Origin: an uncultured Acidobacteriia bacterium
Lineage (GTDB): Bacteria > Acidobacteriota > Terriglobia > Bryobacterales > Bryobacteraceae
Assembly: GCA_903907865.1 (NCBI GenBank)
Contig: CAIVPR010000077.1
Coordinates: 1-64,000 of the forward strand
Direction of reading: 5' to 3'
Length of the DNA: 64,000 nucleotides
The notes under the pieces are model-generated. The model did no database searches. It saw only the letters and a program-made list of their open reading frames with translations, and was not told the DNA's origin. The position numbers and the translations under genes are program-made. The stretch's first letter is position 1; each line of letters starts with the position of its first letter. This document shows positions 20,147 to 35,002 of this stretch, in pieces.

Positions 20147-20641
20147 CTACACCCTCTCACGGAACAGTAGGGAGTACAGGTAGGGCTGGGCGATGGACTC
20201 TTCGCGGACTTCCATCCATGCGGCGAATGCTTGGCGTGCTTGTTCGACGGCGTTCGACGCTTCCGCAGGTTCGAATTCCTCTCCCACATCGTAGTCCGCC
20301 TTGTGGCGTGCATCCTGCAATTCAACAAAGGCCCGCGCAACTCTCGACAACGAGGCGCGGTGCGGATGATCGGATTCGGGCACGGCGGTCCGCTGGGGAG
20401 AGCCCAACTCCCTCAAGAGCGTGCTTGAGGCCTCCTTCATTCGACGATGGTCAAACGCACGCGCCAATCGGTCATGCAGATCCGGCTGGCGCCAATTCAA
20501 GACGGCATCACGAATCAAGAGGTGAAACAATCCGTAGTACGCGGACGAGACTGCCCGTCGGATATTGGCCTGGGTCGGCGGAGTATCGCGCAGGAGATGC
20601 TCCGCCTGCTCAATCAGTTGCTCGGGCAGATCTGGAATCAC
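20147..20641 (-). CDS. HEPN-superfamily protein
   Basis: The 164-residue helical protein has two HEPN hallmarks: the helix RRAVSSAYYGLFHLLIRDAV and the later ARHKADYDVG, matching the R-x-x-ADYD pattern of one HEPN branch. HEPN proteins are often ribonuclease toxins or partners in defence and toxin-antitoxin systems. The gene lies 12 bases after a 92-residue gene and ends 26 bases before nadC. No nucleotidyltransferase is present, so a classical MNT-HEPN pair is not supported. RNase activity is unproven, because the usual Rx4-6H motif is not clear. Confidence 0.65.
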   Translation of the reverse strand: MIPDLPEQLIEQAEHLLRDTPPTQANIRRAVSSAYYGLFHLLIRDAVLNWRQPDLHDRLARAFDHRRMKEASSTLLRELGSPQRTAVPESDHPHRASLSRVARAFVELQDARHKADYDVGEEFEPAEASNAVEQARQAFAAWMEVREESIAQPYLYSLLFRERV

Positions 20642-20956: not shown

Positions 20957-21910
20957 TTAACGCGGAACCGTCGTCGTTGAAATCGCGGGCAAGACATCGA
21001 CGCCAGCCGCTGCCGTTGCCATGGGTGAGGTTAGAGAATGGACGACGAAGACATTCTCGCGAAGTTTGGACATCTGGGCCCGGGCATCTTCAATCCGATC
21101 CCCGCAACCGGCCTCGTCGGGAAACAGCAACCCGAGGACGGATCCACTGTGTGCCACGGCCACACCCAAGGCCCGGGTCCGCTGGCCGATCTCAACAAGC
21201 GAATCCAGATCGCGCTTGGGATTCCGTTTCTGGTTCAAGATCGCACTGCGGGTGCTGATCCGCCCCACTTCCTCCAGATCATTCTGAAGAATGGCGGTTT
21301 CGATCGCCGGCAACAGCTCCGCATACTCGGCGCACTCGGCATCACAAAACCCCCGGTTGCGGCGGTTGTATTCGATGGTGTCGACCTTGCCTCCTTCATC
21401 AATGGCGACCACGGCCAGCCGGTCGGGCGACCCCAGACGCCGCCGCAATTCGACGCGGCGGTGGAAGAAGCTGACGAACTCGGAATACATGACGCCATCG
21501 GTCGGCTCGATGCTGCGAAGCAGGGCGTGCATAAGTTCGGACGGGACAACGCAGCCGGTAGCGGCTTCGAAGGCACGGGCGGCGGCGACGAGATCGGCGG
21601 AAGAACTCGACATTCCTTTACCTTCCGGCAATTCGCTTTCAATGTGGAGGTGGCCGCCGCACGACACACCGAAATGATCGGCGAGCAGTCGCACAAGGGC
21701 GAGCGATTTCAGCTTGTGCACGGGCGTCACGGTGAAGCGCTCGACCGAGGGGTCGGGAATGAGCGTCACCCGCGAAAAGTTCTGGATGGGCAGCGTGACG
21801 AGGAAATGCGCATCCTCGTTGGCCAAGGCACCTTGCAGCAACTCTCCGAAGCTGCCATGCGCCACGCCAATACCCACTTGCGGTTTTCCGACTACGTGGC
21901 GGTTCTTCAA
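20957..21910 (-). CDS. GHMP kinase related to L-threonine kinase (PduX-like)
   Basis: About 317 residues. GHMP kinase motifs are present: an N-terminal GVAHGSFGELLQG, as in PduX-type kinases (G-x-x-GELxQG), the ATP-binding LPEGKGMSSSSADLVAAARA, and a C-terminal VAHSGSVLGLLF. PduX phosphorylates L-threonine in cobalamin synthesis, but no cobamide gene lies here. Its neighbour is a cysteine-synthase-like PLP enzyme, so it probably phosphorylates a hydroxy-amino acid to make a phosphate leaving group. A TTG at 21910 overlaps the PLP stop codon as TTGA, matching the ATGA overlaps elsewhere in the operon. ATG 21973 or 21982 would extend the N-terminus. Confidence 0.82.
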   Translation of the reverse strand: MKNRHVVGKPQVGIGVAHGSFGELLQGALANEDAHFLVTLPIQNFSRVTLIPDPSVERFTVTPVHKLKSLALVRLLADHFGVSCGGHLHIESELPEGKGMSSSSADLVAAARAFEAATGCVVPSELMHALLRSIEPTDGVMYSEFVSFFHRRVELRRRLGSPDRLAVVAIDEGGKVDTIEYNRRNRGFCDAECAEYAELLPAIETAILQNDLEEVGRISTRSAILNQKRNPKRDLDSLVEIGQRTRALGVAVAHSGSVLGLLFPDEAGCGDRIEDARAQMSKLRENVFVVHSLTSPMATAAAGVDVLPAISTTTVPR

Positions 21911-23025
21911 GGGCCTGTACTCCGTGACACCGGACCGTGGCCGAGAACTTCCGGGTATGTGCGGCGGGCCCATGGGAACCATGCCCAGTCGGCCCCGACT
22001 TCAGTTGGGCTGTTGACCAAGACCGGCTCCGTCCAAGTACGGCTGAGTTCGTCCGCACGTGGAGTGAGCCACTCCGAGTTGTATACAGCTTTCATGTAAC
22101 GTAAGCCGTTGTCGGGCAGGATGGTGAGGACGCGCTTGCCGGGATTGGTCTTGGCGATCCATTCGGCGATGCTGTAGGCGGCACCCGAAGTGGGTCCCAG
22201 AAGCAGGCCGGATTCGCGGTGAATCTGGTGAATTGTGCGGATCATTTGCGCGACCGGGACCCAATGCACTTCGTCGCAGAGGGCGTGGTCCACGTTGGGG
22301 ATAACGATGTCGGAGCCCATGCCGAGCAGCGGCTCGTAACACTCCCGGCACAGGGGCGTGGCGTCGCCGGAGGTTGGACCGAAGAGCACGGACAGGTTGT
22401 GGTCGACTGCAATGACCTTGAGATGCGGATTCGTCTTGCGCAAGACGCGGGCGAAACCAGAGATGGATCCGCCGCTGCCGACGGAGGCAACCAGAAAATC
22501 AACGCTGCCGAGCGCTTGGGCCACGCCAGCCGCAACTTCCGCGTAGGCGGCCGGATGCTCCGGGTTGTCGTATTGGCGGGGCCAGAAGGTGCCGGGGGTG
22601 GTCGCCATGACCTCGCTCAAGCGGTCGAGGCGCTTCTGCTGGATGCCGCCCATATAGCCTTTGCCACTGAAAATCTTCTCAATGCCCGCTCCTAGGTGGC
22701 GAAGGCGCCATTCCAGCGATTCCTCCAGTTGGCCGGTAACGAGGGAAAGACGCAGTCCGAGATTCGCGCACACAATCGCGAGGCCCAAGGCGAAGGTGCC
22801 TGAGCTGCTTTCTACAACCAGGCCCCCTGGCGCGAGCGCCCCCGACTCCAGCGCGCGCTGGAGGATGTGGCGCGCCGGCACGATCTTCATCAGATCGAAC
22901 TGGAGTGCATAGATGTCGGGGCGCATCTGCAAAAGTGCCGGCGCACATAGCTTGTCGAGTGCCGAGGACACGTCCATTCTTTCCGTCCCGGGGGTACTGT
23001 TTGCGATTTCGATGGGTGGTGTCAT
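21907..23025 (-). CDS. Fold-type II PLP enzyme, cysteine-synthase family
   Basis: The 372-residue protein has the cysteine synthase/SbnA layout: the probable PLP lysine in QFDLMKIVPARHIL, the substrate loop ESSSGTFALGLAI (normally SSGNTG), the phosphate-binding GSGGSISGF and a late GPTSGAAYSIAEW. The changed loop argues against O-acetylserine sulfhydrylase and for another beta-replacement or elimination. SbnA-type enzymes use O-phosphoserine, which fits the GHMP kinase encoded next to it. The gene overlaps the halogenase-like gene upstream by ATGA. The product of the reaction is unknown. Confidence 0.85.
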   Translation of the reverse strand: MTPPIEIANSTPGTERMDVSSALDKLCAPALLQMRPDIYALQFDLMKIVPARHILQRALESGALAPGGLVVESSSGTFALGLAIVCANLGLRLSLVTGQLEESLEWRLRHLGAGIEKIFSGKGYMGGIQQKRLDRLSEVMATTPGTFWPRQYDNPEHPAAYAEVAAGVAQALGSVDFLVASVGSGGSISGFARVLRKTNPHLKVIAVDHNLSVLFGPTSGDATPLCRECYEPLLGMGSDIVIPNVDHALCDEVHWVPVAQMIRTIHQIHRESGLLLGPTSGAAYSIAEWIAKTNPGKRVLTILPDNGLRYMKAVYNSEWLTPRADELSRTWTEPVLVNSPTEVGADWAWFPWARRTYPEVLGHGPVSRSTGP

Positions 23026-24641
23026 GCTCTCCCGCCTACGGCAAATGCAAGCTGGCGGCTTTCCGGTGCAACATATGTCTCGATCATCGGGATCAAGCGC
23101 TCGGTGCCGGAGTCAACGGAATCGCTCTCGACCCCGAGAAACCGACATAGCGCCGGCGCGAATTCATGGGCCATGAAGTCGATATTGGCGGCCGTGGCCT
23201 CAACCGTTCGCGGCGTCGTTACGGTGGCCCGGAGAGCCGTGACGCTCGAAACGCCGCCGAACCCGAAGAATCCACTTTTGCAAGTCCGTTCCCGATCCAA
23301 CTTGTCGGCCACGCGGAAGGCGCTCTGCGCGCGTTGGTTGGCCAAGCCCAGCCGGTCCACGAGATCGTGCAACTTCGGGAGGTTGGCCTCGTCGTCCAGG
23401 AAATTCTGAATGGACAACTGCGAGAAGAAGGCCCAGTAACAGGCGATGTCCCACATCAGCTTGACCATGGCGACACGGTCATCGCCGAAGACCCCGTACG
23501 TTCCGTGAAACAGGCCGAGCATCACGTCCACGACCTTCAAGTACAGGGAATTGTAGGAGTCAACGATTGCCGGCGTGAGAGTTCCGGCCCTATCCAACTC
23601 GATCATGCGAATCGTGGCGCGGTTGCCGTGGGCAATCAGGTCGGTACCCATGCTGTACAAGGGATCGGTGAAGGCCGCCGATTCGCCAATGCAGGTCCAG
23701 CGATCCGCGGAGTAAGCCCGGTGGGTTGTGTGGGCGTAGTTCTTCAACGCTAAAAAGTCGAGCGGTGCATCCTGCCGAATGGCATTGTGGAGGCTCGGTT
23801 CTTGCTCCCGGAGCCAGGCCATCGACTTTTCGTAGGTATTCCGAGCACTGATCGGATGGATGGCCTCGTCGGCCGCAATTCCAATGCTGGTCATCCCGGA
23901 GCACAGCGGGATCACCCATACGAAGTAACCGGGTCCCATGAGGTGGTTGGTGGAGTTCCGCCGTTTGGCGAAAACGCGGTCATGCCATTCGCCGTTTTCC
24001 CGCGGTGCCATTTCGGAAACATCGAAGTTCCGCTGGATGCGCCACCACGTCGAGCTGGCGTTGTGCGGGGCGGGCTTGCAGAGGCCGAGCTTGGATTGAA
24101 GAAAGCGGCGGCGTCCGGTGGCATCCACCACCCACCGGCAGGTTGCAGTTTCTTCGTGCTTGTCGTCAAGGAAGGCGAACGATACAGTGTGATCCTGCTC
24201 GCCAAACTGGACATCGCGGACGCTGACGCCTTCTTGAACATGCACACCGCGCTCGCGACAGAAGCGGCGTAGATCGTTTTCGAGTATGCCTCGATCCAGC
24301 TGAAACGAGCTGTTACGAGCGAACACCACATCGCCAACCTCGAATCGCTTGTCAAAGCCTTGCTGACGGTAGCCCGCGCCGAAAAACCTTAGTCCGAGTT
24401 TCCGCACGTGCGTGGACTCGATATAGGCCTTGAGTCCGGCGAGTTCACGAAATAGCCAAGTACCACCCTCGGTCAACGATTCGCCGACCTTGTGTGTTCC
24501 GTCGGGCAGCGGCCCGGCTTGTTTCTCAAGCACGCAGACGGAGACGTCGGGCAGCTTGCTCTTGAGTTGCATTGCGAACGTCAAGCCCGCAAGTCCGCCG
24601 CCGCAGACCACAACGTCGTAGTGGTTGGTGTGTAGTGGCAT
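23022..24641 (-). CDS. Flavin-dependent halogenase-like monooxygenase
   Basis: The 539-residue FAD protein has the dinucleotide motif VVVCGGGLAGLTFAMQL, then THKVGESL, which includes the lysine (KxGES/T) used in flavin halogenases, and SAAFTDPLYSMGTDL near residue 310. The diagnostic W-x-W-x-I-P appears as GYFVWVIPL, so the first Trp is Phe. It may halogenate a carrier-bound substrate, or may instead act as a hydroxylase. The nearby ligase and carrier protein fit the pyrrolyl-carrier type of halogenase context. No partner flavin reductase was seen in the window. Confidence 0.8.
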   Translation of the reverse strand: MPLHTNHYDVVVCGGGLAGLTFAMQLKSKLPDVSVCVLEKQAGPLPDGTHKVGESLTEGGTWLFRELAGLKAYIESTHVRKLGLRFFGAGYRQQGFDKRFEVGDVVFARNSSFQLDRGILENDLRRFCRERGVHVQEGVSVRDVQFGEQDHTVSFAFLDDKHEETATCRWVVDATGRRRFLQSKLGLCKPAPHNASSTWWRIQRNFDVSEMAPRENGEWHDRVFAKRRNSTNHLMGPGYFVWVIPLCSGMTSIGIAADEAIHPISARNTYEKSMAWLREQEPSLHNAIRQDAPLDFLALKNYAHTTHRAYSADRWTCIGESAAFTDPLYSMGTDLIAHGNRATIRMIELDRAGTLTPAIVDSYNSLYLKVVDVMLGLFHGTYGVFGDDRVAMVKLMWDIACYWAFFSQLSIQNFLDDEANLPKLHDLVDRLGLANQRAQSAFRVADKLDRERTCKSGFFGFGGVSSVTALRATVTTPRTVEATAANIDFMAHEFAPALCRFLGVESDSVDSGTERLIPMIETYVAPESRQLAFAVGGRA

Positions 24642-24652
24642 GCTTTCGAACC

Positions 24653-24904
24653 TTACTGGCCCCCGGTCTGGCTGCGCACGAATGCGGCTAGCGCGTTGAT
24701 GCTACGGAAGTTTCTCGGAACGATGTCGTTCGACCCGAACTGGATGCTGTACTGCCGCTCCAGAAGAACAATCAGACCCACCATCAGGCGCGAGTCGATG
24801 GTGCCTGAGTCTATCAGATCGTAGTCATTGGTCAAGTCCTTCGGTGCTCCGTCCGGGAACCGTTCGGCTGCGAGGTAGTTGAGGATTTCGTCTTCAATGC
24901 TCAT
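24653..24904 (-). CDS. Acyl/peptidyl carrier protein
   Basis: The protein of about 83 residues begins MSIEDEILNYLAAERFPDG. The phosphopantetheine site is DSGTIDSRLMVGLIVLLE, with the Asp-Ser pair expected for attachment, although L normally follows DS. The gene follows the adenylating ligase directly (ligase stop at 24916), an arrangement typical of stand-alone ligase/carrier pairs that load an amino or carboxylic acid. A TTG at 24919 overlapping the ligase stop would add five residues. ATG 24904 is chosen. Confidence 0.85.
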   Translation of the reverse strand: MSIEDEILNYLAAERFPDGAPKDLTNDYDLIDSGTIDSRLMVGLIVLLERQYSIQFGSNDIVPRNFRSINALAAFVRSQTGGQ

Positions 24905-24915
24905 ACTGGTTGTAA

Positions 24916-26382
24916 TCAATTCTCAATTAGTTGGGCGGCGTTGCGAAGCTTCTTGCCGCTAGCCGTGTACTTGAGTCGTTCCACCACTTGGAACCGCCTC
25001 GGAATCTTATGCTCCGCCAGGAAGCGTTTGCAATGGGCGCGGAGTTCGTCTTCGCTCGGCGCGGTCCCAGCGTCACGCAGTTCGAGATGCGCGACACAAG
25101 CCTCTCCCCACAGCCGTTCCTGCATGCCGAAGACACAAGCGGCGCGAATCGCGGGATGGCTTTCGAGCACTGATTCCACTTCGTCGGGGAAGAACTTCAT
25201 CCCCGCTACGCTGATCATTTCCTTGACACGACCGACGATGTAAAGATAGCCGTCGTCATCCAGCTTGCCGAGGTCTCCCGTGCGGAACCAGCCGCCGGTT
25301 TCCTGTAGCATCGTGTTACGAGACTTCCACGGGAAGTAATATGCGTCCAGCATGCCCTTGCCCCGCAACGTGATCTCCCCGTGCGGTTCACCCGGCTCGC
25401 GCAGCAGGCGCAATTCGTAATCCGGCAGAATGCGACCGACCGAGCCTTGCTTGTCCGCGCGATTGCTCGCGTTGATGGCTGGCAGGCCGAGTTCGATGAT
25501 CCCGTATGCCTCGTTGAGGACTTGGCCGAAACGTTGGTGGAACGCCGCCGCGATGTCGGATTTCAGCGAGCTGGTGGTGACGATTGTCAGGCGCAGGCTA
25601 TCGGCCAGGGCGGCTCCACTATCGTCCTGAACCATCAGCTTGTAGTGCGTGGGTGATGCGTAAATAATAGTGGCAGAGTGACGTGCGGCGGTCTCGATCA
25701 ACGTGATGCCAAAGCTGTTTCTGGGGAGCACGATGGCCGCACCGAACGTCATGTACGCGACGATGGAAACGGTGAAGTGATAGTCCATCGACAGTACCCA
25801 CATGATTCTATCCGCGGGGCCGATATTCAGGACTTGATTGGCGGCGTGGATGCGCTCGTAAATCGACTCGTGGGAGAGAACGACGCCTTTGGCGCTACCG
25901 GTAGTTCCAGAGGTGAAGCGAATGAAACCGGCGTTGACATCCGCCAATTGCGGTGGAGCTTCGCAGGACGGAAGTCCCTTGGCGTAGACGGCGTGCCCGG
26001 CAACCGCTATGCCTCCGGGGTGAATCAGTCCGTCCAAGTGAGAGATAATCCGCGAGTCGGCGATCACGCCATCAATATGGATGAACTGAAAAATCTGGCG
26101 CTTTTCATGCGCAGTCAGGTCAATCGGCAGAGGCGTAACGCAGGCACCGCAAGTCCAAGCGGCGTAGACCAGCGCGATGTAGTCGCGACCGCTGGGATAC
26201 AGCAGGCCAATGTTATCACCCTGTCGCACTCCGGCGTGAATCAGTTTTTCGGCAAGTACTCTGACGGTGGCTGCGAATTCACTGTACGTCGCAGCCACGT
26301 TCGGCTCCGGTCCGAAAATCAATGGAGCGTCGGGGTGCTGTAAAGCCCTCTCGAAGAATTTGTCCGCCAGATTCAGCTTCAT
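24916..26382 (-). CDS. AMP-dependent ligase (adenylate-forming enzyme)
   Basis: This 488-residue enzyme has the core adenylation motifs: FIRFTSGTTGSAKGVVLSHE (A3), NEAYGIIELGLP (A5), GGWFRTGDLGKLDDDGYLYIVGRV (A7-A8) and the C-terminal catalytic lysine in YTASGKKLRN (A10). The enzyme would activate a carboxylic or amino acid as an adenylate and load the downstream carrier protein. The substrate-binding residues do not allow a secure prediction. It overlaps the FAD oxidoreductase gene by ATGA upstream (26379-26382). The start MKLNLADKFFERAL is typical for short stand-alone ligases. Confidence 0.9.
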   Translation of the reverse strand: MKLNLADKFFERALQHPDAPLIFGPEPNVAATYSEFAATVRVLAEKLIHAGVRQGDNIGLLYPSGRDYIALVYAAWTCGACVTPLPIDLTAHEKRQIFQFIHIDGVIADSRIISHLDGLIHPGGIAVAGHAVYAKGLPSCEAPPQLADVNAGFIRFTSGTTGSAKGVVLSHESIYERIHAANQVLNIGPADRIMWVLSMDYHFTVSIVAYMTFGAAIVLPRNSFGITLIETAARHSATIIYASPTHYKLMVQDDSGAALADSLRLTIVTTSSLKSDIAAAFHQRFGQVLNEAYGIIELGLPAINASNRADKQGSVGRILPDYELRLLREPGEPHGEITLRGKGMLDAYYFPWKSRNTMLQETGGWFRTGDLGKLDDDGYLYIVGRVKEMISVAGMKFFPDEVESVLESHPAIRAACVFGMQERLWGEACVAHLELRDAGTAPSEDELRAHCKRFLAEHKIPRRFQVVERLKYTASGKKLRNAAQLIEN

Positions 26383-27521
26383 TGTGTAATGTGCCGTCCC
26401 ACGGCCTCCCCCATCGCCCAACACGTACCGGCAACGCGGGCGGAGGCTTGTGCGCGTGGCTCGGCGGACAGGCATTTCCCCACGGCCCAAAAATTGCCGA
26501 TGCCGGCGACCTTCAAACTCGAAAGTGGAATATCGTAGTTGCATCCAGGCGGAAGATACTCCAAGCGGATGCCAGCCTGTGGATGCCACTGTTCGATGGG
26601 CCAAGCTCCCTTGCAGGCCGCGTCCGGGAAGCGCTTGCCCTGTTTGATGTCTTGTTCAGTGAGGCAGTATTCGCCGTCAATACGCCCGCTGTCGCGCCAC
26701 CCCGGCTCGCCGTAGCGGTGGACAAACGCCGAGCCGAAGCCGGGCAGCGCACGCAGATGAACCAGCAGCTGCTCAGCCACGGATCGCATGGCCGCGGCGT
26801 CGAAAGTCAGCGGATCGATGCTGAACTTGGCGTAAGCTTCGTCCGGGTAGACGCCGGAATCCAGCCAAACGCTAGCGCATTCGGCTGGCAGATCGCCAAG
26901 GTCCACTGCCTTCCGTAGCTGGCTCAAGATCGCGACGCCCTTGGGAAACTCCATGGCGGCGGGCTCCATCCCTCGCACTTGGACGATGTAGCCGCCCGAC
27001 GCGGCACCCTCGGCGACGAAGTTGCCAGCCTGCCGTGCGATGCTGGCGTCCCCGGTCGAGTCAACCACGGCACCGGGAGACAGGGCTCGGGTTTCCCCGC
27101 CGAACAGTTCCGAGAGCTGTTCGATCCGTCCGGAACCGACTTGCAGCTGAACAACGGTCGCGCTCCGGTGCACGTCTATACCCGGAGCCTCTTCGATCCA
27201 TTCGCTGATCACGCGGGAATAGACTGCGGGATCGGCATTCAGTACCCAGGTCTTACCGATACGACGCTTGCGGGTGTGCGGACAGGCCTTATGCAAGCGA
27301 CCCGCGAGCTCCATTGGCAGGCCCTCGTTCAGGAATTCCCCTTGATCGTCGAACAGTCCGGCGATGGTGTGAATGAGCGCACGCGCAACCGTGCCGCCGA
27401 GCGTCGCGGTCTTTTCCAAAAGCAAGACCGTTGCGCCCCCGGCGGCCGCGGACAAGGCGCAGCCCAAGCCGGCCGCGCCAGCTCCCACGATTACGATGTC
27501 GTATGTTTTGGCTGCGGACAT
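26379..27521 (-). CDS. FAD-dependent oxidoreductase
   Basis: The 380-residue flavoprotein has the N-terminal motif YDIVIVGAGAAGLGCALSAA, then KTATLGGTVARALIHTIAGL and the distal PGAVVDSTGDASIARQAG, typical of the FAD-oxidoreductase (PF12831-like) group. It could oxidise or reduce a substrate attached to the neighbouring carrier protein, or act on the free amino acid. Its ATG lies 5 bases past the stop of the GNAT gene, and it overlaps the ligase gene by four bases. No substrate can be named from the sequence. Confidence 0.85.
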   Translation of the reverse strand: MSAAKTYDIVIVGAGAAGLGCALSAAAGGATVLLLEKTATLGGTVARALIHTIAGLFDDQGEFLNEGLPMELAGRLHKACPHTRKRRIGKTWVLNADPAVYSRVISEWIEEAPGIDVHRSATVVQLQVGSGRIEQLSELFGGETRALSPGAVVDSTGDASIARQAGNFVAEGAASGGYIVQVRGMEPAAMEFPKGVAILSQLRKAVDLGDLPAECASVWLDSGVYPDEAYAKFSIDPLTFDAAAMRSVAEQLLVHLRALPGFGSAFVHRYGEPGWRDSGRIDGEYCLTEQDIKQGKRFPDAACKGAWPIEQWHPQAGIRLEYLPPGCNYDIPLSSLKVAGIGNFWAVGKCLSAEPRAQASARVAGTCWAMGEAVGRHITQ

Positions 27522-27526
27522 ATGCG

Positions 27527-28360
27527 CTACGGGGGATCCAACTGGTAAATATCGTAGGAGTAAATCATCTTGAATCCGAACCGCTCGGCCCAGAAAGCTG
27601 ACTGTTCGTTGGAATGCCCGGTGGCGAGTTGGATGCCCAAGTCGCGCAGCACCTTCAACGCGGCGGAAATAAGAGTCTGAAAAACACCGTAGGCCCGAAA
27701 CTCGGGCACCACGTACGCGCCCGTCATATGGCCGGAATCCAGTTTGACTACCAAGGCCTGGCAACCCGCCACCGCGCCCTTGTAGCGTGCCAGAAACAAC
27801 CGCAGGCACGGGTCCGGTCCGGTGCCCAATTCGCGGTAGCGCCCACGACGGTGCTCCCGCTCCTCGGGAGGCAGCCCAAAACCCGCGGCCATGGTTTCGA
27901 TGAAGAGATCATAGTCGGCATCCAACTCCGGGTCAACCTGCTGGACCTCAAGCCCCTCCACCATGTCGAGACGGGACCCGGTACTGCCCAGAAGAGCATG
28001 GATGGGGCTTTTCGATGCGCCGCGTGAGGCCAAGCGCTTGCCCAAGTCCCAAGGGCGGGACCAAGGGTAGACACACCAACTGATCGGGAGTCCCGCACCG
28101 TGATACTCGGACACCAATGCGTCGATCTGTTCATCGGCCCCGCTCTCATCCAGATTCGAGAAAAGCACCTCGTTGGCACCGGGCCACTGGGACGAGGGCG
28201 TCAGTGTGCGGTACCAGCCGTCACGGTCAATGACTACCGTGTCGGCGGCCAAACGTTGCGGACCGAGGGGTGCGTTGAGCGCGATCTGCAGTTCGCGGGG
28301 AACTCCCATCCGCGCCGCGAACACGGTGGAGGCGCGGTCGATTGCATGGGATATCGACAT
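27527..28360 (-). CDS. GNAT-family acyltransferase
   Basis: The 277-residue protein has a C-terminal GNAT fold, with AVAGCQALVVKLDSGHMTGA followed by the acetyl-CoA-binding helix YVVPEFRAYGVFQTLIS and the closing FWAERFGFKMIYSYDIYQL. The N-terminal half (about residues 1-140) is less characteristic and may bind the acceptor. In this operon it could acylate an amine of the product, for self-protection or tailoring. It stands 5 bases before the FAD oxidoreductase gene. An 88-base gap with several small hairpins separates it from the diiron oxygenase-like gene. Confidence 0.82.
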   Translation of the reverse strand: MSISHAIDRASTVFAARMGVPRELQIALNAPLGPQRLAADTVVIDRDGWYRTLTPSSQWPGANEVLFSNLDESGADEQIDALVSEYHGAGLPISWCVYPWSRPWDLGKRLASRGASKSPIHALLGSTGSRLDMVEGLEVQQVDPELDADYDLFIETMAAGFGLPPEEREHRRGRYRELGTGPDPCLRLFLARYKGAVAGCQALVVKLDSGHMTGAYVVPEFRAYGVFQTLISAALKVLRDLGIQLATGHSNEQSAFWAERFGFKMIYSYDIYQLDPP

Positions 28361-28368
28361 GGCTGAGA

Positions 28369-28436
28369 AGGGCCGACCCTGACCGCCCTACGGTCGGGGC
28401 TCGAACATCGAGCTTTGACGCCGGAAGGCGGTCCAA
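28369..28436 (-). promoter_or_regulatory. Intergenic stretch with small hairpins inside the operon
   Basis: The gap between the diiron oxygenase-like gene and the GNAT gene holds short inverted repeats: CCGACC/GGTCGG, CTCGAACATCGAG and CGCCGGAAGGCG. They could form RNA hairpins that protect an mRNA end or modulate downstream expression. This is a weak call, since small repeats like these also occur by chance in GC-rich DNA. Confidence 0.3.
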
Positions 28437-28448
28437 GTCTGGGCAGCG

Positions 28449-29186
28449 CTAGGCGGAGGCTGCGACGGCCGCTTTCTCCTTATTCTTCATCTCGGCGAAC
28501 AGGTTGTCCCACCATTCCCTCATCAGGTCGATGGCGATGCGGCCGCCTTCGAGGGCCTGCTTCGGAACGATGGTCGGGCGGACGCCTTCGCGCTCGGCGA
28601 TGGCCTGATCGCCGTAAATACCGCGCAGGAAGATGCCGAGTTCGTCCTTGTGGGACTGCTCGACGCCATCGAGGTGCAGATCGTGGAATGCGACCAAGGG
28701 TTTGCCAAGATCGCCGGAGCCGCGGCGGGCGATCACCTCCACGGATACGTCGCGGAACACCTGGTGCTCGAAAATTGCCGCGGTTTCAGTGGCAAACATC
28801 GCACCCAGAACGAACGAGGGCTCGCCCTTGCAGACGCCGCCGAGCGTATCGAGGAAGTGCGAGGTAGGCTGAAACTCCGCCCGCGCCTCGACATCGCAGC
28901 CGACCTTATTGAGCGCCGCCTTGTACAGCGCGGCATGGCCGCTCTCTTCCTTAAAGTTGCGGACCAGTTCCTTCTTCACGCCTTCGACATCGAAGCCGCC
29001 GGTGGTTTCCGCCGCGTCCCACAGGAATTTCGTGTTGCGGAAGGAGAACTGGAAGTGTTCCATCATGAGCCACTCGAGAGTTCCTGTGCTGTACTGGCTC
29101 AGGTCCCGGAGCGGCTTGCGCGCGTTGTCCGTGAAGACTTCGTTCCACTGATCAATCGTCTTTTCGACATCCAAAACGGTACTCAT
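28449..29186 (-). CDS. Haem-oxygenase-like diiron (HDO/CADD-type) protein
   Basis: This 245-residue helical protein resembles the iron-containing redox enzymes that include CADD, UndA and BesC. Candidate metal ligands lie in EESGHAAL (E-x-x-H, as in UndA), ATETAAIFEH and FHDLHLDGVEQSHKDELG. Such enzymes use oxygen to fragment, desaturate or N-oxygenate small substrates. It lies in the same operon as a carrier protein, ligase and flavoprotein, so a role in natural-product tailoring is likely. AAAGGA just upstream of ATG 29186 is a good ribosome-binding site. The exact ligand set is inferred, not aligned. Confidence 0.75.
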   Translation of the reverse strand: MSTVLDVEKTIDQWNEVFTDNARKPLRDLSQYSTGTLEWLMMEHFQFSFRNTKFLWDAAETTGGFDVEGVKKELVRNFKEESGHAALYKAALNKVGCDVEARAEFQPTSHFLDTLGGVCKGEPSFVLGAMFATETAAIFEHQVFRDVSVEVIARRGSGDLGKPLVAFHDLHLDGVEQSHKDELGIFLRGIYGDQAIAEREGVRPTIVPKQALEGGRIAIDLMREWWDNLFAEMKNKEKAAVAASA

Positions 29187-29247
29187 TGAGTGCTGTCCTT
29201 TGTATTATGTTGTGATTCGGAAAAAGCTCTACGGGCGAGTGGCCCTT

Positions 29248-31551
29248 TCAAGCCGGTGCTGTTGACCCTTGCGGCGGCGCGAGCAGGGCCCGCGCAACCG
29301 ACTGACTTTGCTTCTGGTGCTCACGTCTATCGAATACCGGCTTCATGGCGATGGCCAAGCCGCCGAAGAGCGACACGGAGTACAGGACCTCGGTGGCGGC
29401 AAAGGTGGAACCCAGGAACAGAATTCCAGCCACTGCCGCGATGCTGATCGACGAGGTGAACCTGATGTTGTCCTTCAGATTGCGTTCAAACTCTGAGCCG
29501 AGCTGAAACAGGTTCAGCAGTTGGTTTAGGCTGCCCTCCATCAGGACGATCTGAGCGGTGTCGGTAGCGACGCTGGTGGCACCGCGGAGGGAAATCGACA
29601 CTTGGGCTTGGCGCATCGCGATCGCGTCGTTGATGCCGTCGCCGATGAAGCACACCCGACGGCCTTCGGCCTGCAGCTTCGCAACAATCCCGCCCTTGGC
29701 CTCGGGCAGCGTGCCCGCGAAGTAGCCGGTCATCCCCAAGTCGTGGGCCAGCCTTGCCGTGGGGGCCTCGTGATCGCCGGAAACGATATACATCTCGATG
29801 CCCCGGGTGCGCAAACCGCGCACAATCCCGAGCGCTTCGGGCCGGATCGAAGGTTTCAGTTCGATGCAGCCTGCAATTTCGTCATCGACCGCCACCAGCA
29901 CCAGCGAATGGCCATGCGCCTTGCATTGTTCCACGATTGGCTGGACGCCGGCAACTGCCGCGAGGCCCTCCATGTCCATGAACCTCGCGCTGCCGACGCG
30001 GATCACCGGACCGGTTCCATCAGGCGACGCCCCGCCCACTTTCAAACGCACTTTGATCCCGTAGCCGACTTCGTAATGGGCATCGTCGATCACGGGAAGG
30101 CGCAGGGAATTGCTCTCGGCGTGATCTAGAATCGCCTTCGCAATCGGGTGGGTTTGGCGCGCTTCGGCGGCTGCCGCGAAGGTCAGCACCTGATCGGTGC
30201 TCAAGCCATTCAGGGAGTAAATCTGGACAACTTCGGGCTGTTCAAGCGTCAGGGTGCCGGTCTTGTCGAACAGAATCACGTCCACCTTGCCGAGTCGCTC
30301 CAGAGCCGCCGCGTCTTTCACCAACACGCCACTCCGGGCCGCGAGGTTGATGAAGTTGAGCATGGCGAGGGAGCCCGACATATACGAGGCCGTTGTCGTG
30401 TTGGCACCCATCAGGCTGATGGCACCCGCGGCTCCCCGGAAGGGAAAAGTCAGCACGCTGGCCGCCAAGGTTGGCAGCGCAAGTTTGTCGGCTGTTTCCA
30501 CGGCGCTGATGCTGGCAGGTTTGGCATCACGCATGGTCCTGTTGAGGACTTCGGCGATCTTTCCGGCTGTAGTTTCGGCGCTGGTCTTTTCAACCACCAC
30601 GTAGACCCGCCCGGAAACAAGCATCGTGGCTGCCAGGACGCGGTCGCCCTCGTGGCATTCAACCGGCTGCGATTCGCCGGTCAGAACCTGCTGGTCGATC
30701 GTCGCCGCACCTTCCACAACGGTACCGTCCACCGGGATGACCTGCCCGGCGCTTACGACGATGGTGTCGCCCACGACCAAGCGCTCAAACGGAATCTCGA
30801 TCTCAACTTCATCCCGGCGAATCCACACGCTGTCCGGCTGGAGTTGGAAGATGCTGATCAGGTTGTTGCGCGACTGGTCTTCGCCGATCGCCTTCGCCTT
30901 CAGCATCATGCCATAAAGGACGGCGCCCAAGGCACCGACAGCGGCGTAGCCTCCCAGCCAAAGATAGAGGCTGTAGACGCACATCAAATGGATGGCGCCG
31001 ATCCTCTTCGTCTCTTTCCACTTGCGATAGGCGTATGGGTACTTCGCACTCGACGCAGCCAAGCCGATGACGATCGCGGCGGGCATCAGCGGACTGAAGA
31101 CCCAGGTTCCAAGCAGAGACAGGGTAAGCGCCGTCAATCCCAGGCCCAGGCGGCGGTTCGCGTAGCGTTCCGCATCCGACACTGCAAACTCCTTGTTGGT
31201 CAGGAGCTTTTGGAGTCCAGCGTGATGGGTGCGACCGAGCAGGGGATCGACGTAGGTGTGAAAGGCGCGTTGATAGTGCCCATCAATGAGTCCCAGATGA
31301 GACTCGCACTGTCGCTTCACTTCGCGGAGGTTGTTGGTGGAGAAGAGGGCTGGGTGACGGCGGAGGAAACGCGTAGATCGGTCGAGCGCCGAATCCAGCA
31401 CTCGATCCACAGCTGACTCGAGTGAGCGCAGCAGCTTGATCTCGACTGGTTTCGATGCCAATTTACCGTTCCTTTTCGACGCGGCGGCCACCACTGGTAC
31501 AGTCCCTTCCCTTCCATGTTCGCGAGATCTCCCGCGAAAACCAAAAACCAT
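29248..31551 (-). CDS. P-type ATPase of P1B architecture without CPx motif (first copy)
   Basis: The 767-residue protein contains all P-type ATPase catalytic motifs: LTGESQPV (actuator), FDKTGTLT (phosphorylation site), THPIAKAI (P1B-type HP motif), SGDHEAPT and GDGINDAIA. No N-terminal heavy-metal domain is present; the first 130 or so residues are helical and charged. Where P1B pumps carry CPC or SPC in membrane helix 6, this protein has TTTASYMSGS. The transported ion or molecule is therefore unclear. It follows the amidinotransferase gene in the biosynthetic operon and precedes the diiron gene. ATG 31551 is chosen; ATG 31650 would extend it with atypical sequence. Confidence 0.85.
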   Translation of the reverse strand: MVFGFRGRSREHGREGTVPVVAAASKRNGKLASKPVEIKLLRSLESAVDRVLDSALDRSTRFLRRHPALFSTNNLREVKRQCESHLGLIDGHYQRAFHTYVDPLLGRTHHAGLQKLLTNKEFAVSDAERYANRRLGLGLTALTLSLLGTWVFSPLMPAAIVIGLAASSAKYPYAYRKWKETKRIGAIHLMCVYSLYLWLGGYAAVGALGAVLYGMMLKAKAIGEDQSRNNLISIFQLQPDSVWIRRDEVEIEIPFERLVVGDTIVVSAGQVIPVDGTVVEGAATIDQQVLTGESQPVECHEGDRVLAATMLVSGRVYVVVEKTSAETTAGKIAEVLNRTMRDAKPASISAVETADKLALPTLAASVLTFPFRGAAGAISLMGANTTTASYMSGSLAMLNFINLAARSGVLVKDAAALERLGKVDVILFDKTGTLTLEQPEVVQIYSLNGLSTDQVLTFAAAAEARQTHPIAKAILDHAESNSLRLPVIDDAHYEVGYGIKVRLKVGGASPDGTGPVIRVGSARFMDMEGLAAVAGVQPIVEQCKAHGHSLVLVAVDDEIAGCIELKPSIRPEALGIVRGLRTRGIEMYIVSGDHEAPTARLAHDLGMTGYFAGTLPEAKGGIVAKLQAEGRRVCFIGDGINDAIAMRQAQVSISLRGATSVATDTAQIVLMEGSLNQLLNLFQLGSEFERNLKDNIRFTSSISIAAVAGILFLGSTFAATEVLYSVSLFGGLAIAMKPVFDRREHQKQSQSVARALLAPPQGSTAPA

Positions 31552-31702
31552 GGTAACACGGCCGCCTTGTCGGTCTGCTGCCAACCGCCTGGGCTCGGCC
31601 CGGCCTTCCCAGGCCAGCGGATATCCGTCCAAGGCCCTTGCCATTTCCACAATAATACAGCAGAAAGTCGTGCCGGAACCCGGCGAGGGGGCTGCGGCGG
31701 AG

Positions 31703-31742
31703 GGCTAGCGATGGCACGGTAAAGGGGAGCGCAACGCTAGCC
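31703..31742. repeat. Short inverted repeat in operon gap
   Basis: GGCTAGCG (31703-31710) and CGCTAGCC (31735-31742) form an 8-bp inverted repeat with a 24-base loop, between the stop of the amidinotransferase gene and the start of the first P-type ATPase gene. It may form an mRNA hairpin that sets relative expression. No poly-T tract follows it on the minus strand. Confidence 0.35.
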
Positions 31743-31750
31743 AGATCGAC

Positions 31751-32857
31751 TTAGAAATAGGACTTCAACTCGCCCCGCCGCCTGACATCCAGCGTCGAAC
31801 AGTGGAACGAACCGAGGAACGGATAGTAGGATTCGAACACGCAAGGAATCGGCTTGAAACCCCAGTCCTTGAGCGCGCGGATCAACGGTTCCTGCCGGGC
31901 TTCCACGACGATGCGCTCCTCGTCCAGCATCAGGACATTGATGCTGGCCCATTCGCTCATCAGCTTCAGCGGGTCGTGGATCACGGGAACTGGATCGGGC
32001 GGGATCAGCAGATCCCAGCCCCGCAAGACGTCGGGCAGCCGGTTCACGTCCACGAAGACCGGGTTGACCAGAATTTTCCCTGGCGCCAGAGGCATGAAGG
32101 TCGTGTCGATGTGGATCGCCTCGGGACTCTGATTCTCGATCAAGTGGAGGCGGTAACCCGAGCCCAGATGGCGCTGGAGCCAGTCGACACCCATCTGGTT
32201 GGTTACATTGCTCTTCTGGCCGAAAATATCCCGGCCGCAGCGCACGAAGTCCGCAGCGTCAAAGACCGGCTCGAATTCGTTGATCACGAAGCGCATGGGC
32301 TCGCCGGGGCCCGGAACAGAGTAGTTGAAGTCGTACAGGTCGTCGAGAAGTTGAGGCTTGGGTGCCGCGCTCCATTTCGCTCCGCCCTTGAAATACTCTT
32401 TGAAGAGCGACCGGTAGGCCCAGGCTTCAAAATAGCGCGAGCGGTCCGCCATCGGCGTTTCGATGATTTCATTGCCGATGATCAGGAACGGATCGCGCGG
32501 GTTTGCCGAGCAGAAGCCGCCGGACACACGCCAATCGGGCGTGCCGAAGGGCTTGGAGAAATCCGCACTTGGAAGACGCCGAACCGTGACGCCTTCGGAC
32601 TCCAAAATATGAATGAACCCGGCCAAGTCCCGCCGCGCGGCCGCCACAAACTCAGGCGGATAGGGCGAACCGGCTCCGCCGACAAGCTGTTCGGCCTCCA
32701 GCCAGTCGCCCGGCGGAGCCGTGGCCACATTCACGGCGTTCCATTCGGGGAACATCGCGCCGTCCAGATTGCCGATGATCACTTCTTCCAAAGGATCCCA
32801 TTCGTTATGGGAGTTGACCGGGCAAGTAGCGATTTGTCTTGACTGTGAGTTATCCAT
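31751..32857 (-). CDS. Glycine/amino acid amidinotransferase (AGAT-like)
   Basis: The protein of about 368 residues matches arginine:glycine amidinotransferases. These move the amidino group of arginine to an amine, giving guanidinoacetate in creatine synthesis and the cylindrospermopsin and saxitoxin pathways. The catalytic triad is visible: Asp in FEPVFDAADF, His in EAIHIDTTFMPL and Cys in GSFHCSTLDVRRRG. The N-terminus CPVNSHNEWDPLEEVIIG is also characteristic. It lies between two P-type ATPase genes at the head of the operon, so a guanidino group is predicted in the product. ATG 32857 (MDNSQSRQ) is preferred over ATG 32905. Confidence 0.92.
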   Translation of the reverse strand: MDNSQSRQIATCPVNSHNEWDPLEEVIIGNLDGAMFPEWNAVNVATAPPGDWLEAEQLVGGAGSPYPPEFVAAARRDLAGFIHILESEGVTVRRLPSADFSKPFGTPDWRVSGGFCSANPRDPFLIIGNEIIETPMADRSRYFEAWAYRSLFKEYFKGGAKWSAAPKPQLLDDLYDFNYSVPGPGEPMRFVINEFEPVFDAADFVRCGRDIFGQKSNVTNQMGVDWLQRHLGSGYRLHLIENQSPEAIHIDTTFMPLAPGKILVNPVFVDVNRLPDVLRGWDLLIPPDPVPVIHDPLKLMSEWASINVLMLDEERIVVEARQEPLIRALKDWGFKPIPCVFESYYPFLGSFHCSTLDVRRRGELKSYF

Positions 32858-32905
32858 CTGTTGTCGATTCCATGAATTCGGGGGTTCAAGTCCAACTGGC
32901 CGCAA

Positions 32906-35002
32906 TCAAAGCGGCGGGTGCATGGGGGTACTCTTCGGGGAGGCGTTGCCGGTGCGCGAGTTGTCCCTATCCGCTTCAGAACCCACGGCGGGCCACATTC
33001 CCGCGACTATGCCGGAAACCATGCTGAGGTTGTACAAGAAGATGACTTGGTAGACGCCAAGGCCCAGGAACAGAACCCCGCCCATCGAGATCAGCCCGGG
33101 CACCATGGTCGAGGCCAAGGTGACCTTTGTGGTCACGTCGAACCGGCGGGCCAATTCAAAGAGCTGCACCAGCTGCGCCAAGCTCTCATCCATCAGAATG
33201 ATCTGCGCCGTGTTGGCGGCAAGGGTCGAACCGGCGCGCAAAGAGACTGACACGTCGGCCCTTTGCAGCGCGAGGGTGTCATTGATGCCATCGCCGATAA
33301 AACAAACGTGGCGGCCCTGGGCCTGCAACTCCTCGACCAGCCGCGACTTGTCGTGGGGCAGGACTTCGGCAAAAAAGTGGTCGATACCAAGATCGGTTGC
33401 CAGCGCTTGCGTCGGCGCGATGTGGTCGCCGGACATGATGTGGACCGTCAGTCCCCGCTCGCGCAACTGGCGGACAACTTCTTTCACGCCCGGGCGCAGG
33501 GCTGGCTGCAATTCGATGGCCCCGGCCAACTCGTCGCCGTAGGCTACGAAGACCAGGGAATTGCCGGCGCGGTGGCGGGCTCCCAGCATCGCCATGAATT
33601 CATCCGGCAGCGAGACCCCCTGCATGGCCATAAAGCGTTTGCTGCCCGCTCGCACAACCACGCCGCCCACGACGGCTTCCATGCCGAAACCGGCCTCGTA
33701 ACGGGCGGTGTCGAGCGGGAGCCGCGGCAGCTTGCGTTCGGCCGCGGCGTGCAGTATGGCCCGCGCGATCGGATGACTTTGGTTTGCCTCAATGGCGGCC
33801 GCATGCATCAGAATGTCGTCAGCCGAGGTAGAGCCGCAAGCGTGAACCTCGGCCACATCCGGCTGGGGCAAGGTCAGCGTTCCAGTCTTGTCGAAGATAA
33901 CGGTATCCACCTTCTTGACCGCTTCCAGTGCACGGGCGTCTTTGATCAAGAGACCGTGCTGTGAAGCGAGTTGCAGGAAATTCAACATGCCGAGCGGGGC
34001 GGTGATCTGCAGAATCGGCGCGAAGTTGGAACTGAGGGCGGCCACGGCGCTGGCCGGGCTCAACGCTGCGAGCGCAACGGCGGACAACCCCATCGTCGGC
34101 AGGACGGATTGGTCCGCAAGCTTTTCCCACCGGGCTTGGACGGCAACCCGGTAGTCGGCGGTGTTTGCCAAGACAGCCGCAATCTGCGCCGCGACCGTGT
34201 CTGAACCGGCGCCTTCCACCCTCACGTGGATACGGCCGGTCAACACGACGGTGGCAGCCAAGACCGAATCGCCCGGCCCTCGCTCCACTGGCTGCGCCTC
34301 CCCGGTCAGAACGTGCTGGTCGATGACCGCCAACCCGTCGGTGACGGTGCCGTCAATCGGGACCATTTGCCCGGCGTGGACCACAATCGTGCTGCCGGCA
34401 ATCACCTGCTCGAACGGAATCTCGATTTCGACACCGTCCAGCAACACCCAAACAGTCCGCGGTTGTTGTCCGAAGATGTTCTTCAGACTCCGACGCGAGC
34501 GATCTTCGGTCCTGAGCATCATCTTCACGCCCGCGTAGTAAATAACGCCGCCAAGTGCGAAGGCGGTATAGTAACCCGCGGCGAGCATGCCCAGCAGGGC
34601 GGCCGATTCGAGCACGGTCCAACGCAGGTGATGTTTTCGCCTTAAGGCCGTGTAGGCGTCCCGAAAAATGGGAATGCAGGAATAGAGGCTGAGAGCTCCG
34701 CTGGCAAGGGCGAGCGGGGGCAAAAGCGGGCTCGCGACCGCGAGGCCCAACGCCCCCGAGGACATTTTCAAATGATAGGTTGCTTCCCGTTCTTCATCGG
34801 CGGCCTTCGGCGGCTGCGTCGCGGTTGCCACCGGGCCGCCGTCGAATTCCTGCAACTGCGTCTTCCGGTTGTCGCCGAACAGGAATGCCAGCTTTCCGTG
34901 CCGCCTGATGGAACGCCAAGTTGTGGTTCGACTGGCCCGGTCCACGGCAGCCATGCCGGCAACTACACCGCTGCCTAACAGGAATGGGAGGATTAAAGGC
35001 AT
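32906..35002 (-). CDS. P-type ATPase of P1B architecture without CPx motif (second copy)
   Basis: This 698-residue ATPase is the first gene of the operon. It has LTGEAQPV, FDKTGTLT, SHPIARAI, SGDHIAPT and GDGINDTLAL, so the catalytic cycle appears intact. At the helix 6 position it reads FAPILQITAPLGML instead of CPC. An N-terminal hydrophobic start (MPLILPFLLGSGVVAGMAAV) precedes a charged loop, and no HMA metal-binding domain is present. It differs from the first copy along its length, so it is not a recent tandem duplicate. Paired ATPases around an amidinotransferase suggest export or uptake linked to the product. ATG 35002 is chosen. Confidence 0.85.
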   Translation of the reverse strand: MPLILPFLLGSGVVAGMAAVDRASRTTTWRSIRRHGKLAFLFGDNRKTQLQEFDGGPVATATQPPKAADEEREATYHLKMSSGALGLAVASPLLPPLALASGALSLYSCIPIFRDAYTALRRKHHLRWTVLESAALLGMLAAGYYTAFALGGVIYYAGVKMMLRTEDRSRRSLKNIFGQQPRTVWVLLDGVEIEIPFEQVIAGSTIVVHAGQMVPIDGTVTDGLAVIDQHVLTGEAQPVERGPGDSVLAATVVLTGRIHVRVEGAGSDTVAAQIAAVLANTADYRVAVQARWEKLADQSVLPTMGLSAVALAALSPASAVAALSSNFAPILQITAPLGMLNFLQLASQHGLLIKDARALEAVKKVDTVIFDKTGTLTLPQPDVAEVHACGSTSADDILMHAAAIEANQSHPIARAILHAAAERKLPRLPLDTARYEAGFGMEAVVGGVVVRAGSKRFMAMQGVSLPDEFMAMLGARHRAGNSLVFVAYGDELAGAIELQPALRPGVKEVVRQLRERGLTVHIMSGDHIAPTQALATDLGIDHFFAEVLPHDKSRLVEELQAQGRHVCFIGDGINDTLALQRADVSVSLRAGSTLAANTAQIILMDESLAQLVQLFELARRFDVTTKVTLASTMVPGLISMGGVLFLGLGVYQVIFLYNLSMVSGIVAGMWPAVGSEADRDNSRTGNASPKSTPMHPPL

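Follow-up and report, generated by a model that had tools for sequence, protein, structure and literature searches.

On the minus strand of a 64,000-nucleotide stretch of DNA from an uncultured acidobacterium of the family Bryobacteraceae (contig CAIVPR010000077.1, positions 1 to 64,000; hereafter the window), eleven co-directional reading frames without internal stops run from position 35002 to 20957. In our judgement the chances are evenly balanced that they form a dedicated operon, built of modules that are also found apart, for a small guanidine-bearing metabolite derived from an amino acid and made without a multimodular non-ribosomal peptide synthetase (NRPS) or polyketide synthase (PKS). 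More surprising than the operon is the putative pump class to which its two P-type ATPases, Atp1 and Atp2, would belong. P1B-type pumps use a CPx motif for metal, and this motif is missing from both proteins and from their near relatives. It is possible, if doubtful, that the CPx-less ATPases are a true class of natural-product pumps. Equally tentative is the broader picture of an undescribed pump class, with guanidinium-bearing cargo in several lineages, inside clusters of at least three named phyla, of which the window operon would be a minimal case outside NRPS and PKS biosynthesis, with two pumps bracketing the amidinotransferase gene amt and a product of a new type, an amidinated and carrier-processed amino acid. 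Should the pump reading hold, P-type ATPases could be added to the transporter types known from specialised metabolism; genome mining would gain a new cluster marker, and biochemistry a P-type pump whose organic cargo is unusual. Should the operon reading alone hold, the locus would still offer a short and testable path to a guanidino metabolite in an acidobacterial lineage.

The contig that holds the window has 77,702 bases and belongs to a genome of 186 contigs and 7.5 Mb; the stretch past the window was also examined. An earlier account made from the letters of this DNA (the sequence-only reading) had listed eleven minus-strand genes in one direction, and both the list and the families named in it were borne out by Pfam, NCBIfam and PDB sequence searches (Table 1), which also agree with its view of a biosynthetic-looking run that combines an amidinotransferase with a carrier and a ligase. 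The close spacing that it described is found from gnat downwards and not in the upper half. With the starts chosen here, the junctions gnat/faox (+5 nucleotides, nt), faox/lig (-4 nt), lig/acp (+11 nt) and acp/halo (+11 nt) are tight; halo/plp is -4 or +44 nt depending on the start, and the full kin frame, for which a later start is also possible, overlaps plp by 76 nt. Gaps of 48 nt (atp1/amt), about 100 to 256 nt (amt/atp2), 61 nt (atp2/hdo) and 88 nt (hdo/gnat) separate the upper genes and leave room for more than one transcript. Two promoter-like matches occur between 20000 and 36000, no excess over a shuffle mean of 3.8.

Table 1. The eleven genes of the run, in gene order, with positions in the window.
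Gene	Position	Strand	Assignment
atp1	32906..35002	-	P1B-like P-type ATPase without CPx (TAPL at the site); Pfam E1-E2_ATPase/Hydrolase
amt	31751..32857	-	SxtG-type amidinotransferase; phmmer 6u1r SxtG 581 bits
atp2	29248..31494	-	second P1B-like P-type ATPase without CPx (SGSL at the site); start 31494 or 31650
hdo	28449..29186	-	haem-oxygenase-like protein (CADD/DUF3865-like) with conserved His/Glu set
gnat	27527..28360	-	GNAT acyltransferase; PF00583
faox	26379..27521	-	flavin adenine dinucleotide (FAD)-dependent oxidoreductase; PF12831 (FAD_oxidored)
lig	24916..26382	-	stand-alone adenylating ligase, MenE/acyl-CoA-ligase type; PF00501/PF13193
acp	24653..24904	-	stand-alone carrier protein; PF00550 (PP-binding) 23.0 bits, cut-off 20.8
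halo	23022..24641	-	flavoprotein of the carrier-protein halogenase group; PF04820 (Trp_halogenase/FAD_binding_3); halogenation predicted
plp	21907..22977	-	SbnA/cysteine-synthase-like pyridoxal phosphate (PLP) enzyme; PF00291 (PALP fold)
kin	20957..21982	-	GHMP kinase; PF00288/PF08544; start uncertain

Gene content, protein families, motifs and the recurrence of two gene pairs are direct observations, and the run is real, compact, probably biosynthetic, and unique within the genomes and plasmids searched. A scan of genome contigs with Amt as single query, which reaches close relatives only, gave 53 loci, in which no relatives of Hdo, Gnat, Faox, Acp or Halo were found; a distant PLP relative (27%) occurs in two Desulfamplus loci, ligase-like stretches (20-27%) in nine loci and a kinase-like stretch in one. 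When 207 loci outside the window's own genome were scanned with all eleven proteins, the combinations above our self-set cut-offs, which drop L017 (its ATPase is truncated where the contig stops) along with L068 and L070 (pairs known from annotation), were amt with an ATPase and kin with plp, plus a Hyalangium amt with a kinase-like stretch about 8 kb away. On plasmids, tblastn searches with eight of the eleven proteins returned many records, and the 14 regions examined hold single relatives or the kin-plp pair. Since only two gene pairs recur, the eleven genes are a mosaic of these two pairs plus several rarer enzymes. The sequence-only reading had taken the eleven genes as one operon and had named a lack of co-conservation as an observation that would speak against it; such a lack is what we found within these searches, so that co-function of the eleven genes rests on their layout. 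The kinase/PLP pair that it had singled out was met again on plasmids and in other genomes. The available text of the literature on SxtG, on haem-oxygenase-like and guanidine enzymes, on diaminobutyrate and threonine kinases, on P-type ATPases in clusters and on the combination of amidinotransferase, halogenase and carrier, with MIBiG and subscription papers outside this scope, does not describe the eleven-gene set; neither do the accessible parts of PMC13185094, PMC13108848, PMC10849742, PMC9723581 and PMC10051162.

The first recurring pair joins amt to a P-type ATPase. An Atp1-like ATPase lies in the same stretch as amt in 10 of the 53 genome loci, and an eleventh (L059) has a partial match (26%); by title, the hosts are Pseudomonadota, Thermodesulfobacteriota and Chloroflexota, together with one unclassified bin and the window lineage. 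In a quick tree of 58 Amt rows, where the ATPase-linked members number 12 with the window included and L008 counted beyond the ten loci, ten of the 12, the window among them, fall into one 19-row clade (SH-aLRT 97), and L025 and L008 lie outside. The nearest Amt is a protein from an Anaerolineales metagenome-assembled genome (MAG; 79% over 322 columns, pair support 92), whose locus (L022) is ordered ATPase, carbamoyltransferase, amt, ATPase. Nine rows of the clade have no ATPase in the stretch examined, in some cases because little contig is left beyond amt, and the linkage label needs nine changes on the tree, so the linkage comes and goes. The other genes vary widely, with PKS-like genes (by clustering) and PLP genes in L013 and L041, radical S-adenosylmethionine and sulfotransferase genes in L014, and TrpF/TrpA-like genes in L015. 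A genome of the same genus as the window (G006) carries on one strand genes for a carrier-sulfotransferase-thioesterase protein, an ATPase, a PKS with an aminotransferase domain, a methyltransferase, an amidinotransferase, an oxidoreductase and another ATPase; plus-strand genes interrupt the series after the first ATPase and before the PKS. This layout resembles the upper half of the window operon. In the window's own genome (L111:8403-11643, contig C35), a methyltransferase gene, a short open reading frame (ORF) with an amidinotransferase-like start (CPVYSVKEWDP) that then diverges, and a CPx-less ATPase gene together look like a decayed version of the PKS-amt-ATPase cluster of G006.

Hdo scores under the cut-off against both Pfam models DUF3865 and Haem_oxygenas_2 and matches PDB entry 3b5o with an E-value of 3e-4; E43, E73, E80, E81, H84, E134, E140, H171, E176 and H179 are invariant in a six-row alignment, a set that would be compatible with the three His and three or four carboxylate ligands described for haem-oxygenase-like diiron oxygenases (PMC13108848). 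On three similar Streptomyces plasmids, relatives of Hdo (25-27%) come after amidinotransferase and cupin genes, and this company would link the two halves of the operon chemically. The plasmids (L124, L125 and L126) share a conserved run of desaturase, amidinotransferase, cupin and DUF3865 protein. In L125 and L126 it continues with genes for GFA, arginine-deiminase-family, antiporter and nitroreductase proteins, and this content suggests guanidine oxidation chemistry. The closest Hdo relative (44%) lies on a Streptomyces clavuligerus plasmid (L065:8824-16061) with ATP-grasp, arginase-family, isochorismatase-like, HypE and HypF genes; no hydrogenase gene is annotated in this stretch, possibly another uncharacterised cluster. 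Taken together, the neighbours of Hdo relatives weakly suggest that a guanidine or amine nitrogen is the target of the enzyme. In the available text of PMC10849742 and PMC13108848, guanidine N-oxygenation of the SznF type pairs a haem-oxygenase-like domain with a cupin; by description, not by alignment, the window protein is similar in that it too keeps company with an amidinotransferase.

These plasmids bear on an alternative that we regard as a real possibility, though an unlikely one, namely that two neighbours have been read as one: an ATPase-amt-ATPase remnant of a polyketide-type cluster beside an unrelated ligase/carrier/kinase/PLP operon. Such an origin would account for the two pairs recurring alone, and never with the rest, in the loci scanned, and for the widest gaps falling in the upper half; in G006 a PKS-amt arrangement has two ATPases and the other eight genes are not nearby, and L111 offers a decayed-looking methyltransferase, a short amt-like start and an ATPase. 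The unbroken same-strand run, the tight packing from gnat to halo and the Hdo relatives with amidinotransferases on the Streptomyces plasmids argue against it.

The view that all eleven genes work jointly on one small amidinated compound, to which we give the same weight as to its opposite, has several results to contend with besides the wide upper gaps. The full set was found in 0 of the 207 loci. At an E-value of 1e-60, plp was confined to the window's own genome among 247 genomes of the phylum. It was found in 0 of 193 genomes around Hyalangium, where an empty answer carries little weight, and a single genome had it among the 398 around a Methylobacteriaceae genome. At 1e-55, one of the 271 genomes around an Anaerolineales genome had a match, and at a looser 1e-30 so did 2 of the 27 genomes with an amt locus. 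For hdo, the own genome and one weak match were obtained among 297 genomes, and the six-row profile picked out a single genome among the 283 around a Calothrix. The single-sequence AlphaFold model of Hdo was unusable (confidence score pLDDT 37.9), no amidinotransferase is annotated near two Nostoc plasmid relatives of Hdo, and, unlike SznF-type systems, the eleven genes gave no match to a cupin domain or gene. Family searches of the eleven genes also returned no condensation or ketosynthase domain of NRPS or PKS type and no lyase gene, so that the diamino-acid module discussed below is incomplete.

The ATPases carry the other part of the argument. The sequence-only reading had assigned both to the P-type family, correctly, and had overlooked what they lack: Atp1 and Atp2 keep the catalytic motifs DKTGT, TGE and GDGIND and have no CPx-type motif in the helix before DKTGT. 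When matches to Atp1 were sought in 101 relatives, two groups emerged, one of 16 copies from five genomes scoring at least 385 bits (36-55% identity, apart from Atp1 itself) and a remainder at 273 bits or less; since no more than ten candidates per genome were scored, copies may be undercounted. CPx is absent from all 16 copies of the high-scoring class (L118 and L120, for instance), whereas the second group (30-36%) has it in 22 of the 24 loci read, L091 having CSC and L084 neither; the controls L192, L197 and L204 read CPC. ATPases beside amt read AP, SP, TP, GP or GS without Cys at the CPx site, and among 14 such rows, two of them fragments, 13 reach DKTGT and TGE and 13 GDGIND, each motif being kept wherever it is reached.

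Loss of CPx is also what makes it improbable, in our view, that the locus serves metal handling, with a metallophore pathway and metal-exporting P1B ATPases. NCBIfam labels Atp2, the only one of the two that was run, a heavy metal translocating P-type ATPase (371.2 bits, cut-off 346.25), and the AlphaFold model of Atp1 (pLDDT 76.6) has a P1B-like fold that matches CopA (4bbj, 7r0g) and ZntA (4umw); the SbnA family takes its name from a siderophore pathway, and an Nramp gene lies upstream on the opposite strand. The likeness to CopA and ZntA extends to the three catalytic motifs and the overall fold; the difference is that the window class is without CPx and that its relatives often lie beside assembly-line-type genes. 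The motif is gone from every copy of the class and kept in most of the more distant relatives, and the eleven genes gave no match to an NRPS domain or a siderophore synthetase family.

To return to the pump reading, 7 of 12 stretches around CPx-less ATPases hold an assembly-line marker (ketosynthase, adenylation-carrier protein, thioester reductase or amidinotransferase) or a remnant matching the PKS aminotransferase of G006, against 0 of 39 stretches around CPx-bearing controls; of 40 control regions, one, the 3.5-kb locus L101, was left out. The control stretches gave one carbamoyltransferase-like match and four weak ligase matches. This comparison is partly circular, since the test stretches themselves, once inspected, supplied the marker proteins; moreover, the stretches of G015 and G018 are orthologous, the L111 match is a short remnant and some controls span only 4.2 to 12.5 kb. 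With markers chosen post hoc and two orthologous stretches, the enrichment is a lead rather than a clean test. At a contig end in the window's own genome (L109:3-2250, contig C110), about 5 kb from two further CPx-less ATPases, genes for a carrier protein, an acyl-CoA-dehydrogenase-like and a hydroxyacyl-CoA-dehydrogenase-like protein, labelled by eye, resemble an alkoxymalonyl-carrier cassette.

A possible parallel comes from the miuraenamide cluster region, for which the available text reports two heavy metal translocating P-type ATPases (orf16 and orf23), one with a Nannocystis protein as best match, and a 164-residue GTPase (PMC10051162). The likeness, P-type ATPases in a PKS/NRPS cluster region, is one of annotation rather than sequence and does not imply membership of the class. 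Deletion of orf14-16 left production unchanged, and deletion of orf19-23 raised it tenfold (0.07 to 0.70 mg/L) and changed the profile, the authors seeing no plausible function for that stretch in the text available (PMC10051162). A protein family that recurs in the amt loci L013, L025, L041 and L059 (DUF697 by Pfam in L013), with a CPx-less ATPase in three of the four, may be compared with the miuraenamide GTPase. Several observations weaken the case for the pump class: five of the 12 CPx-less stretches have no marker; 15 of the 16 copies keep DKTGT and the remaining one (G006, L118) has DKFAV with an altered GDGIND and may thus be inactive; and each miuraenamide ATPase-bearing region was deleted separately, not both together, and the product was still made (PMC10051162). 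For one acidobacterial genus, MacB pumps are given as the main transporter type of clusters, and the word "ATPase" is absent from the main text (PMC9723581).

The second recurring pair, kin and plp, is adjacent in the window, as are its relatives on plasmids of Streptomyces globosus, Sinorhizobium fredii and Tabrizicola and in two further genomes. Kin, which we take to be PduX-like, shares 44-45% identity with a kinase in an NRPS cluster of S. globosus and up to 47% with rhizobial plasmid genes; Plp scores 194.9 bits against TIGR03945 (SbnA-like), under the cut-off of 349.95, and all five rows of an alignment keep its Lys31. The S. globosus and S. fredii regions hold a PLP enzyme and a lyase-family gene beside the kinase, so the likeness to this module (kinase 40-47%, PLP enzyme 36-38%, adjacent) stops at the lyase, of which the window operon has none. 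Pairs of this kind presumably make 2,3-diamino acids through phosphorylated Ser or Thr, a role not met in the literature searched. In Mesorhizobium L-2-11, about 3 kb separate a Plp relative from a kinase on the other strand; next to this kinase is a different PLP gene, and no lyase is annotated. The nearest relative of Plp (54-55%) is encoded on a Tabrizicola plasmid, and the kinase beside it is only 23% identical to Kin. The 21-kb plasmid of Tabrizicola piscis carries a compact kin-plp cassette with a DMT transporter and an alanine-racemase gene (L070:15330-20334).

Between the two pairs lie the carrier, its ligase and the flavoproteins. The best PDB matches of Halo are PltA (5dbj, 74 bits), then 5buk, ChlB4 and CmlS, all with low scores. 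Halo shares with PltA, ChlB4 and CmlS the FAD fold, a Lys aligned with the KKFG region of PltA and the adjoining ligase and carrier genes; it differs in its 74 bits to PltA, in reading FVWVIP at the WxWxIP site, where two homologues have WVWLIP and WVWFIP, and in the lack, among the eleven genes, of an acyl-CoA-dehydrogenase-type proline oxidase. The Lys (K81, invariant in three rows) and WxWxIP are what we take to be the catalytic residue and the halogenase motif. Lig is closest in the PDB to 5buq, a 2-succinylbenzoate--CoA ligase, and such MenE likeness does not specially indicate an amino acid substrate. NCBIfam matches of Acp (ACP_for_OlsHI, AmcB and AsbD) are all under cut-off, and Faox matches solved flavoproteins at its FAD-binding start alone. 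Biosynthetic loci are the usual setting of a stand-alone carrier, a halogenase-group flavoprotein and a kinase/PLP replacement pair, and these building-type genes make it very improbable that the run is an operon of arginine or guanidine catabolism or stress, in which the amidinotransferase, oxidases and ligase could in principle serve breakdown.

Amt was matched by no Pfam or NCBIfam model at the E-values used, and it aligns over its full length (from residue 10 or 26 to 383 or 384) with solved amidinotransferases. The AGAT-like enzyme of the sequence-only reading is indeed an amidinotransferase, nearer to SxtG (6u1r, 581 bits) than to HsvA (338) or AGAT (315). In the alignments with SxtG and HsvA it keeps GSFHC and IHIDTT, presumably the catalytic Cys and His segments, and its EAIH, which we assume to lie in the substrate pocket, is near EALH of SxtG and unlike APMH of HsvA; transfer of an amidino group from arginine to an amine is predicted. 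Its gene neighbourhood is unlike those of SxtG and AGAT, without an SxtA-type protein on the window contig, and its clade stands apart from the cyanobacterial members in the tree. In a gammaproteobacterial MAG (L017:5196-12514), an SxtG-type amt lies two genes from an AprA-type methyltransferase-carrier-aminotransferase protein, in our assumption SxtA-type, followed by a P-type ATPase, and a Methylococcaceae MAG (L052) shows this order too, with a protein from the same cluster. We see next to no chance that the run is part of a saxitoxin-like pathway, which SxtG as the best solved relative of Amt and the gene order of L017 and L052 might recall: the SxtA-type query from L017 had no tblastn match at 1e-3 in a search confined to the 77.7-kb contig, the window's 19-row clade does not include the cyanobacterial Amts (L023 and L024), and we know of no other enzyme family typical of that pathway among the eleven genes.

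For the proposed operon we infer every reaction, their order and the cargo of the pumps as follows, and a carrier-tethered substrate and a guanidino product are predictions here as they were in the sequence-only reading. Kin would phosphorylate Ser or Thr, and Plp would exchange the phosphate for an amine nucleophile, giving a 2,3-diamino acid; Amt would transfer an amidino group from arginine to a free amine. Lig would load an acid onto the stand-alone Acp, where Halo, and perhaps also Faox, could oxidise or halogenate it; Hdo may oxidise a nitrogen of the amine or guanidine, and Gnat may form a final amide. Atp1 and Atp2 would export or sequester the cationic product, not a metal.

The same-strand run goes on past kin with a 92-residue ORF, a HEPN-like ORF, nadC and birA (gaps of 24, 12, 25 and 29 nt); dksA and the Nramp gene, which lies upstream of the run, form the other flank. 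A search for an empty insertion site through the flanks in the same genus, with eight stretches taken from among 20 genomes with a nadC match, found nadC and birA adjacent in 8 of 8 stretches. Neither flank of the run (HEPN/92-residue or dksA/Nramp) nor any of the eleven genes occurs in these stretches, and the comparison is uninformative. The HEPN-like ORF of 164 residues (20147-20641 of the window) is one of 11 matches in its own genome, and several copies in relatives carry stops, by which it is assigned to a multi-copy, partly decaying family.

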